Shown piece after piece: positions 6,505 through 50,401 of a stretch of 64,000 bases of DNA. The notes beneath the pieces were generated by a model. That model did no database searches. It was not told the origin of the DNA and saw only the letters and a program-made list of their open reading frames with translations. The first letter of the stretch is position 1. The number at the start of each line of letters is the position of its first letter. This DNA comes from Enterococcus moraviensis ATCC BAA-383 (lineage in GTDB: Bacteria; Bacillota; Bacilli; Lactobacillales; Enterococcaceae), in assembly GCF_000407445.1 (NCBI RefSeq), contig NZ_ASWB01000001.1:744001-808000 (forward strand), written 5' to 3'. The translations under genes were made by a program, and so were the position numbers.

Positions 6505-6613
6505 TTGAGTCGTGGTATTCTATTTCTCAGACTACTTCCCTACGCGAGTATCAACTCACAGGTTCAAAGGGTCCGTTCAAACGAACATCTCAGTCAAAGT
6601 GACTCCCCTAGTA
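6502..6613 (-). promoter_or_regulatory. TPP (thiamine pyrophosphate) riboswitch
   Basis: The minus strand shows the full TPP aptamer: ACTAGGGGAGTC (6612-6601), CTGAGA, the invariant GGACCCTTTGAACCTG, and GATACTCGCGTAGGGAAGTAGT, whose ends ACTA/TAGT form P1 (6613-6530). Aptamer sequence GAGTTGA (+ strand 6551-6557 read in reverse) is complementary to TCAACTC (6508-6502), which reaches into the 5' arm of the terminator. Without TPP that pairing would form an antiterminator; TPP binding would lock the aptamer and let the terminator form, shutting off tenA-thiM-thiD-thiE. Confidence 0.95.
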
Positions 6614-6622
6614 CTTATCTAA

Positions 6623-32928: not shown

Positions 32929-32957
32929 TTGAGCTAGCATATTCAATTCGGTATACT
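32929..32957 (+). promoter_or_regulatory. Promoter of the tandem structured RNA region
   Basis: TTGAGC (32929-32934), 17-base spacer, TATACT (32952-32957). Transcription would start near 32964, about 60 bases before RNA unit 1. Confidence 0.75.
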
Positions 32958-33024
32958 TAAGTCGTAGAATAGAAATGAAACGAAGGAAACTTTTCCTAGT
33001 TTAAACGATAATTAAATAATCATT

Positions 33025-33220
33025 GGCACTTTTTCAATGGACTGCCAATCCAATGAAAAAGAACATTGTAATGACAGCCCAAACTGCCGGAACAACTTGC
33101 CATAGTGCGAGAAACAAACTCGCTTGTTTTGTTGTATCTGACTTCTTTTTAGATACAACAGACAGGTTTATTTGTTGGACTATTGTCAACGGTATTGGTG
33201 GAAACTGATATCGTTTTTTT
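33025..33220 (+). ncRNA. Structured RNA unit 1 with terminator, unrecognised family
   Basis: A closing stem GGCA (33025-33028) with TGCC (33098-33101) holds a long hairpin CTTTTTCAATGGA / TCCAATGAAAAAG (33029-33041 / 33049-33061, one mismatch) and an unpaired ACAGCCCAAACT (33074-33085). Then come hairpins GCGAG/CTCGC (33107-33123) and TGTTGTATCT/AGATACAACA (33130-33160), and a terminator CGGTAT/ATATCG with seven Ts (33190-33220). Unit 2 repeats the same order with different, compensating stem bases, which is strong evidence for RNA structure. It fits no riboswitch or sRNA family I know. Confidence 0.65.
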
Positions 33221-33288
33221 CTATTCTGCTACTCTTACATGGGAGGTGAATAGTTTACACATCGTACAAGCATAAAACAGAAAAAATA

Positions 33289-33511
33289 GGCACTTTATCA
33301 ATTGGCGCCAACCGATTGATAAAGTCCTGCATAGACAGCCCAAACTATCTATACAAGTTGCCCATTGCTAGTTCCGAAGTTCTAGCTTCTTTATTGTACC
33401 GAACTTTTGTCTGAATTTCTAGACATGATTGTTATTTTTCGGTCGTTTAGCTAAACTTTTCTCGCATTGGAAACGATATTGGTAGTTGTACGCTGCTTGT
33501 ATCGTTTTTTT
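33289..33511 (+). ncRNA. Structured RNA unit 2 with terminator, paralogue of unit 1
   Basis: Same layout as unit 1: GGCA (33289-33292) / TGCC (33359-33362), hairpin CTTTATCAAT / ATTGATAAAG (33293-33302 / 33315-33324), the identical 12-base ACAGCCCAAACT (33335-33346), hairpin GCTAG/CTAGC (33367-33386), a third hairpin GTCT/AGAC (33409-33424) and a terminator AACGATA/TATCGTT with Ts (33472-33511). It ends 46 bases before the next gene. The pair could be tandem cis-regulators of that gene or two separate small RNAs. Confidence 0.65.
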
Positions 33512-33557: not shown

Positions 33558-33836
33558 ATGAAAAAACCAGTAAAATGTGTTAAAGCAATTCCTTATCAGG
33601 ATATTTTAGATATAAAAGAAGTCTTAGAAAGAATGAAATCTTTGGAAAAAGCGTTGTTATTATTGAATGATTTTTTCAGTGACCAAAATATACCTGTGAA
33701 CAAAAAGAAAATCATTCGTGACTATTATGCTTGTGGGAAAATTTATCACAGCTATTTTAAGGAAATGGAAAACATGTTGAATATTTTAGAGAAACAGATT
33801 TGTGTTCTTACTGAGAAACAGTCGATTTCTTGCTGA
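33558..33836 (+). CDS. Small protein of unknown function behind tandem structured RNAs
   Basis: A 92-residue, mostly helical, soluble protein with four cysteines (near residues 7, 59, 82 and 92) and a likely coiled-coil C-terminal half. The start at 33558 follows AAAGGAAG at 7 bases; a longer frame to 33486 would begin inside the terminator hairpin. I recognise no domain. It lies directly downstream of RNA unit 2, so those RNAs may control it. A weak hairpin at 33909-33949 could end its transcript. Confidence 0.65.
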   Translation: MKKPVKCVKAIPYQDILDIKEVLERMKSLEKALLLLNDFFSDQNIPVNKKKIIRDYYACGKIYHSYFKEMENMLNILEKQICVLTEKQSISC

Positions 33837-49728: not shown

Positions 49729-50146
49729 TTAAGTTGATTAAATATTTTGTTAGCTATAAAACCATGTAAAAACTATCTATTAGTAAGGATAACCTTATTC
49801 TCATCTAAACAATCTGAACCCTTCCTACTTTCAAATCTATGCAGCTCCAAGGCTGCGCCTTCGGAATAGATTTCTACGATATAACTCTATCATTACTTTC
49901 ATATTTAACGCTCAATACCTCTATACTATAACAGAAATAAATTTTTTTTGACAATTAATCTTCATTTCTTAACAAATTTTTATTTTTAAGAGAGATATTA
50001 CTGGTCAAGTGACGTTAAATATGCTATATTAAGAGTGTAGTTTTTGTTCGGTAATATATGTGTAGCTGTTTCAAATAAACATCTTCCACATTTTCACCTT
50101 TCAAGTAATTGCAAAATATGTGTATATCACAAGGAGGATTTTTATT
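49729..50146. other. Gap and long 5' leader of the cold shock gene
   Basis: 418 bases without a gene. The left half is AT-rich with nothing recognised. From 50002 it holds the csp promoter and an untranslated leader of about 110 bases, as is usual for cold shock genes. Confidence 0.6.
50002..50030 (+). promoter_or_regulatory. Promoter of the cold shock gene
   Basis: TGGTCA (50002-50007), 17-base spacer ending TGC, TATATT (50025-50030), an extended -10 promoter. The leader from about 50037 to 50146 could act as an RNA thermosensor, as in other csp genes. Confidence 0.65.
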
Positions 50147-50347
50147 ATGGAAACAGGTACAGTAAAATGGTTTAACTCAGACAAAGGTTTTGGATTTATC
50201 ACTGCAGAAAACGGTAACGATGTATTCGTACATTTCTCAGCTATCCAAGGCGACGGATTCAAAACTTTAGAAGAAGGTCAAGCAGTGACTTTCGACGTTG
50301 AAGAAGGCCAACGTGGTCCTCAAGCTACTAACGTTAACAAAGCTTAA
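50147..50347 (+). CDS. Cold shock protein (CspA family)
   Basis: A 66-residue single-strand nucleic-acid binding protein that melts RNA structure. RNP1 (KGFGFITAE, near residues 13-21) and RNP2 (DVFVHFSAI, near 27-35) are both present, and the start [14 protein letters not shown] is typical. The ATG at 50147 has AGGAGG 9 bases upstream; an ATG at 50120 lies before that site. Which csp paralogue this is cannot be told. A strong terminator follows. Confidence 0.96.
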
Positions 50348-50370
50348 TTAACTTAACATTAGTAAATTCA

Positions 50371-50401
50371 AAACCTGACGATTTTTCGTCAGGTTTTTTT
50401 A
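50371..50401 (+). terminator. Terminator after the cold shock gene
   Basis: AAACCTGACG (50371-50380) pairs with CGTCAGGTTT (50387-50396), followed by TTTTT. Confidence 0.93.

Follow-up and report, generated by a model that had tools for sequence, protein, structure and literature searches.

What are the two structured repeats that lie between a single promoter and a small gene without named relatives in Enterococcus moraviensis ATCC BAA-383? The window, that is, the whole stretch of 64,000 nt analyzed here, corresponds to positions 744001-808000 of contig C1 of this genome (G000:C1 in our numbering). A first-pass annotation had described the repeats as two tandem copies of an unrecognized structured RNA, each with its own terminator, and had offered tandem riboswitch-like switches or two small RNAs as possible identities. 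Its description of the parts agrees with our reading of the sequence: two tandem units are present, with GGCA/TGCC closing stems, long inner hairpins, small hairpins GCGAG/CTCGC and GCTAG/CTAGC, one promoter ahead of both, a terminator of the form CG.TAT..TATCG plus T-run behind each, and a 92-codon open reading frame after the second terminator. The reported 12-base identity (ACAGCCCAAACT at 33074 and 33335) is real but is not a conserved sequence, since its middle six letters vary by locus. The plus-strand features of the locus are as follows.

32929 to 32957, plus strand: promoter of the sense transcript, TTGAGC-N17-TATACT, read in the sequence, with a predicted start near 32965
33020 to 33139, plus strand: unit 1 in sense orientation, match to covariance model R1 (G000:C1:777020-777139, 82.7 bits, E = 1.6e-14)
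33078 to 33083, no strand assigned: hexaloop code of unit 1, CCCAAA on the plus strand and UUUGGG in the antisense RNA
33189 to 33220, plus strand: sense terminator 1, hairpin and T-run
33284 to 33401, plus strand: unit 2 in sense orientation, match to covariance model R1 (G000:C1:777284-777401, 116.3 bits, E = 5.2e-22)
33339 to 33344, no strand assigned: hexaloop code of unit 2, CCCAAA on the plus strand, the same as in unit 1
33473 to 33511, plus strand: sense terminator 2, hairpin and T-run
33558 to 33836, plus strand: open reading frame for a 92-aa protein, of a family without a named relative

Read on the plus strand, stem P1 (GGCA/TGCC) encloses the long hairpin P2 and a long stem, P3-P4, which is capped by the hexaloop; P5 comes next, followed by the block TTTATTGTACC, a spacer, and the terminator about 100 nt further on. 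The plus-strand fold has a z-score of -7.07 for unit 1 with its flanks and of -3.40 for unit 2. A covariance model with 34 base pairs was built from 64 aligned units, and 20 of these pairs have changed on both sides, in agreement with the earlier suggestion that compensating changes reflect selection for RNA shape. Across the 64 units 83.2% of cells pair, compared with 25 to 40% when partners are slid by one to three columns, and none of 500 shuffles reached the pairing level of the real alignment.

Relatives of the units are confined to one bacterial order in the genomes searched. A DNA search found them in 23 of 41 genomes, including all 22 of the genus, and covariance matches occur in 61 of 105 Enterococcaceae genomes, in 65 of 395 genomes of the order and, at E ≤ 1e-4, in 3 of 398 genomes of a class sample, all three within the order. 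In the window's own genome the model matches 30 times at E ≤ 0.01, counting one reverse-strand echo; of the overall set of 403 matches, 360 were left after removal of minus-strand model echoes and of matches failing a start-motif filter. The tandem arrangement of two units recurs at 83 distinct loci, where, outside the loop, the mean identity of units 1 and 2 is 68% (38 nonredundant loci with matched codes). The search returned many further copies with covarying stems, mostly upstream of one gene family, which is what the annotation had named as support for its reading. It had also been unable to place the units in a known family, and in line with this no Rfam 15 family overlaps them at gathering score on either strand, in the window and 39 other loci; matches to rli28, rli117, the TPP riboswitch, cspA and group II introns fall outside the units. 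Within the window, a TPP riboswitch aptamer lies at 6520-6619 on the minus strand (65.3 bits) and a cspA thermoregulator match at 50015-50400 on the plus strand (98.9 bits). The titles and abstract openings surveyed in the literature contain no description of this RNA family. Plasmid and phage records gave no match to unit 2 or to one of the small proteins encoded downstream, and plasmid records none to the window's protein, while a unit from a toxin array (see below) partly matched records from E. raffinosus, from Listeria, and from Listeria phages. Sequence comparison supports an RNA family that has no Rfam counterpart and is under selection for its shape.

Several features point to the minus strand as the one that folds. 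Mismatches in the helices of the 64 units are far more often A·C on the plus strand, equivalent to G·U on the minus strand, than G·U on the plus strand (215 versus 45), and the same bias appeared in three further alignments that share part of these units (168/72, 379/64, and 49/9); by arithmetic, 91% of cells pair on the minus strand versus 83% on the plus strand. Of 217 units, 199 fold more stably on the minus strand than on the plus strand, with mean energies of -41.8 versus -28.5 kcal/mol, a wider strand gap than in 120 shuffled units (-24.9 versus -19.1 kcal/mol). Among these units, 148 have an exact ATTGTA, which reads TACAAT on the minus strand, within their final 24 nt (2.3 in shuffled sequence), a share biased upward because the search model itself contains that block; a looser -10 block is present in 199 of 233 units. 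A TAGAAA-like -35 element with at least five of six letters lies exactly 17 bp from the -10 in 132 of these 199 (11.7 in shuffled sequence with spacers of 16 to 18), but TAGAAA is remote from the usual TTGACA, and this counts against the explanation that we prefer. The A-run ahead of GGCA on the plus strand corresponds to a terminator U-run on the minus strand, which, scored as at least five T in eight and counted without a shuffled control, accompanies 96 of 96 second units, 72 of 83 first units, and 67 of 69 single units. The corresponding minus-strand features of the window are listed here.

33016 to 33126, minus strand: predicted antisense small RNA 1, ends approximate; minus fold z -3.48, -35.8 kcal/mol, against -26.5 kcal/mol on the plus strand
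33281 to 33386, minus strand: predicted antisense small RNA 2, with a U-run at its end and a length of about 106 nt; -44.7 kcal/mol, z -6.52, against -30.9 kcal/mol, z -5.05, on the plus strand
33393 to 33398, minus strand: -10 element TACAAT of antisense RNA 2, read in the sequence
33416 to 33421, minus strand: -35-like element TAGAAA, 17 bp from the -10, read in the sequence

The copy in unit 1 is the less regular of the two, a point against the explanation that we prefer: its promoter is degenerate (TACAAC at 33136-33131, with no -35 at 17 bp), and its minimum-energy minus fold differs from the family fold. A scan of the inter-unit spacer for an antisense promoter scored 7.6, below the 7.9 of shuffled sequence. 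Taken together, wobble pattern, fold, promoter, and U-run indicate that the conserved element is a complete putative small-RNA gene on the minus strand, and the structured strand reads as the minus strand. The annotation's second suggestion, two small RNAs, therefore came near the reading that we favor but placed them on the opposite strand.

Signals for a sense transcript are present as well. Promoters similar to that of the window, often TTGCGN-N17-TATACT or TATAAT, stand ahead of unit 1 at many of 51 loci, not including most of class K5, with a mean score that barely exceeds the shuffled value (8.84 versus 8.27). A terminator lies within 130 nt after unit 1 in all 81 distinct stretches (shuffled, 6.6), after unit 2 in 60 of 92 (shuffled, 5.8), and after single units in 37 of 57. 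Solitary units in another genus of Enterococcaceae have a sense terminator 99 to 110 nt behind the unit. A GGAGG resembling a ribosome-binding site was seen by eye between terminator 1 and unit 2 in classes K1, K4, K5, and K6, without a conserved start codon.

The gene behind the second terminator belongs to a family that had no match above the curated cutoffs of Pfam or NCBIfam, the closest being weak hits in PADLOC (E = 0.0068, for another member) and the PDB (E = 0.052); by eye, the protein has no hydrophobic segment. With a profile built from 18 such downstream proteins, a family member of about 82 to 103 aa was found downstream of 81 of 96 tandem-kind loci (the 83 pairs, 12 K3 loci whose unit 1 was lost to the filter, and L133, with a single matched unit); some could have been missed, since some loci end soon after unit 2. 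The loci without it are concentrated in K10 (4 of 4) and the unclassed group (8 of 9), with 2 of 15 in K5 and 1 of 8 in K2. Of 105 Enterococcaceae genomes, 39 have matches to the protein family, with as many as 17 in one genome, and at one locus of the window's genome both units are kept while the frame of the small protein is broken by a stop. That broken frame and the 15 loci with no small protein suggest that the RNAs may act without it. A second subfamily, with frames of about 106 to 127 aa, was seen near an opposite-strand HTH regulator at L074, L077, L079, and L080.

The apical hexaloop has 42 distinct codes across loci yet is common to both units of a locus. Under a strict rule, 62 of 83 pairs have the hexamer of their unit 2 in unit 1 as well; counting one locus per class and code, the match holds in 40 of 51, while 2,000 shuffles of the pairing gave a mean of 1.3 and a maximum of 6. 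The 21 mismatched pairs comprise 12 from K6, 6 from K8, 2 from K2, and 1 from K7. Those of K6 mostly have a common string of 5 to 8 nt at a shifted place, and in K8 the loops of the two units differ in 6 of 10 loci. Among the 11 unit-1 entries listed for K3, two of which are one locus, nine equal unit 2 by eye, the exceptions being L200, off by one C/T, and L193, unmatched. Over the six letters 3' of the code, identity between the units is just 64%, and conversion of a longer tract thus fails to account for the match.

The code also changes quickly. Ortholog comparison was made for exactly matched codes in classes K1, K2, K4, and K5, giving 157 locus pairs, 26 of which are less than 6% diverged outside the code. 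The code differs in 16 of the 26, by a mean of 2.9 of its six letters against 4.1% divergence elsewhere, and is unchanged in the other 10; orthologous loci only 3 to 4% diverged can differ by 2 to 5 of the six letters, in both units. At a K4 locus compared between G018 and the window's genome, AGCAAA stands against TGGTAT, a change of four of six letters in both units with 2.9% divergence elsewhere, and the small proteins differ by one residue. Since such near-identical proteins go with different codes, the small protein does not read the code, and recognition of the loop by this protein was ruled out as a candidate.

What, then, does the loop pair with? Complements of a locus's own loop on the sense strand numbered 38 at 40 loci (46.8 expected), 59 pairs showed no positional peak of hexamer complements, and five-letter strings flagged three distant bins (-700, -1050, and -1425). 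Loop complements in other tandem loci of the same genome were not in excess over chance (162 versus 150.6). A local partner on the sense strand was dropped as a candidate, and the puzzle of the missing partner resolves because the strand test puts the complement on the opposite strand. Because antisense RNA and leader of a unit come from opposite strands of the same DNA, they are necessarily complementary, and no further partner has to be invoked for the loop. A match between units is needed only if the antisense RNA of one unit acts on the leader of the other, or if both face a common outside target.

We hypothesize that each unit is a sense/antisense RNA pair and that tandem copies keep one code to silence the mRNA of the small protein through loop kissing, a model drawn from sequence that we hold to be evenly balanced between right and wrong. 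On the minus strand, the promoter TAGAAA-N17-TACAAT would drive an antisense RNA of about 106 nt (A) that ends in a U-run. Facing it on the plus strand would lie the leader (S) of a transcript that starts from a separate promoter. Since each unit is followed at about 100 nt by a terminator, this plus-strand transcript would have to pass both terminators to reach the small-protein gene, barring a missed promoter. If both RNAs are made, pairing of A and S would begin at the complementary hexaloops on hairpin P4, and since tandem units keep one loop, A1 and A2 could each meet S1 and S2. The outcome may be silencing by duplex formation and decay, by a stop at terminators 1 and 2, or by both. In three loci picked by eye whose loops are one or two letters apart (L200, L048, and L210), A2 pairs with S1 at six of six positions by way of G·U, and A1 with S2 does not. 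This asymmetry fits an action of A2 on S1, but the trace would be the same if the partner lay outside the locus; L222 (K8, CAGGAA/CAACGA), a fourth pair of equal length, goes against the pattern and pairs in neither direction, with four of six each way by hand. We therefore favor silencing private to the locus, at the even weight just given.

A broader proposal is tentative, and on balance we doubt it: chromosomes of this group may use the loops as addresses, with each genome containing dozens of sense/antisense modules on a common scaffold and every locus having a private six-letter kissing-loop address that is the same in both tandem copies and that a concerted process would rewrite in both far faster than the flanks. 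Weak insulation counts against locus-private silencing: one genome carries CACAAC, CACAAA, and CACAAT, and the finding of equal codes within one genome in 0 of 205 comparisons, where 1.0 would be expected, is not significant (P = 0.32). What we believe to be new here is the large number of chromosomal loci, their tandem layout, and a loop code that is matched and changes fast.

The reading that competes best with locus-private silencing takes A1 and A2, or S1 and S2, for sibling trans-acting small RNAs that use one seed loop against the same distant mRNA, the small protein being a bystander or a second product. Matched loops are expected of such redundant siblings, an outside partner would also fit the wobble pattern at L200, L048, and L210, and the persistence of the RNAs at loci where no small-protein gene was found, like the sense terminators kept by solitary units in the other genus, would follow naturally. 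It is harder to reconcile with the differing codes at orthologous loci of close species, a change that a conserved target would resist unless it changed too. The G/U-rich loops of A and the A/C-rich loops of S also differ from the C-rich seeds through which an RNA would contact ribosome-binding sites. We judge this explanation rather doubtful.

The annotation's first suggestion, sense-strand tandem riboswitches or attenuators bound by a protein, seems improbable to us. The conserved sense terminators, the leader position before a gene family, and the need for read-through all speak for it. So does a short element near the predicted sense start, TAGAATAG/TAGGATAG, which complements CTATTCT/CTATCCT directly behind the T-run of terminator 1; its variable letters fit the complement in 32 of the 33 loci (of 83) that have both. 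Against this, the wobble, folding energy, inner promoter, and U-run favor the minus strand, and the most exposed loop is hypervariable while the downstream protein barely varies. We found neither a conserved ligand core nor mutually exclusive folds on the sense strand. In 93 leaders, forming the terminator hairpin costs a mean of 0.4 (unit 1) and 0.9 (unit 2) kcal/mol, no more in the free leader than with a shuffled leader, in a purely thermodynamic model of the leader from the unit onward; because of this, classical attenuation by an alternative fold that hides the terminator is not supported.

Single units occur in a different setting that bears on two further explanations. Some stand in toxin-immunity arrays of the type VII secretion kind, with pre-toxin TG, EndoU, Fic, and KptA-like proteins (Pfam, five arrays); weaker matches, to LXG in L031 and to DUF3130 in L164, fall below the cutoffs. 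In 16 of 56 single units, an upstream frame has its stop codon -1 to 6 nt from the start of the unit, and within arrays the loop mostly differs from unit to unit, some neighbors being alike. L164 (G009:C23:129000-144500) holds pre-toxin TG cassettes with immunity-like genes, one protein in the immunity position being a KptA-like RNA 2'-phosphotransferase, and four distinct single units there start -1 to 15 nt from the upstream stop codon. Some units adjoin HicAB-like genes (by eye). The RNA rli28, whose sequence reads by eye as a gene for a holin-like toxin peptide, lies divergently beside units in two genera (L174, 1526-1708, and L149, 1191-1373, both minus strand), and rli117 recurs in the single-unit loci L175, L166, L167, and L169, several of which are toxin arrays.

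These neighbors, namely HicAB-like genes, rli28, and the toxin arrays, could be taken to suggest a module of the type I toxin-antitoxin kind, in which the small protein would be harmful and A its RNA antitoxin, and A would indeed lie over the leader of the small open reading frame. The lack of a hydrophobic segment or family match in the protein, and the presence of the RNAs where the protein is missing, make this very improbable. Slighter still are the prospects of a single-stranded DNA site, such as an integron attC-like element or a recombinase core with a central hexamer identical in recombining copies, which would suit identical spacers in direct repeats between inverted arms and the units set close to upstream stop codons, many of them in toxin-immunity cassette arrays, but not the differing hexamers of most array neighbors, the strand-specific wobble, or the transcription signals on both strands.

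If locus-private silencing is borne out, antisense-loop recognition of the kind used in plasmid copy control would exist as a multilocus chromosomal system in enterococci and their relatives, spanning small-protein loci as well as toxin arrays of the kind tied to type VII secretion. Its matched, fast-changing loops would amount to a natural experiment on change in an RNA code with several co-changing partners and would supply natural sets of candidate orthogonal RNA regulators, while an unannotated small-protein family would gain a testable control system.

Among known RNAs, the Listeria elements rli28 (RF01492) and rli117 (RF02909) adjoin some units but are separate, with matches that do not overlap. 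Tandem T-boxes and tandem riboswitches are leader elements that each have a terminator and whose specificity letters are alike in the copies. The units resemble them in all three respects and differ in having the structured strand opposite, no Rfam match, a six-letter variable loop and, by eye, no tRNA pairing pattern of the T-box type. In sense/antisense pairs of the par/fst RNAI/RNAII type, pairing starts loop-first. The par/fst locus of E. faecalis (mentioned in PMC3166299), a type I toxin-antitoxin system, likewise has overlapping sense and antisense RNAs in enterococci; unlike it, the units precede a product of 82 to 103 aa that matches no known small toxin, come in tandem with matched codes, and place the predicted antisense RNA opposite the leader, separated from the gene by a sense terminator.

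The closest parallel is RNAIII of plasmid pIP501 (Inc18 copy control, RF00235), an antisense RNA of 136 nt within the repR leader (PMC4981023). The units have in common with it a predicted antisense RNA of similar size in the leader of the controlled gene, convergent promoters, and the place for premature termination between leader and gene, and their sequence signals include an antisense promoter and terminator opposite the leader as in RF00235. In contrast to pIP501, they are chromosomal, occur at many loci per genome, and are tandem with the code matched between copies; they precede a small protein rather than Rep, and folding does not support attenuation in them. Kinship with RF00235 itself was considered and rejected, at 17.6 bits (E = 4.8) against a gathering threshold of 60 and with no match for a narrower stretch. 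Although by score they are not members of RF00235, the units would, by analogy, operate in the way closest to that of RNAIII on the repR leader of pIP501.
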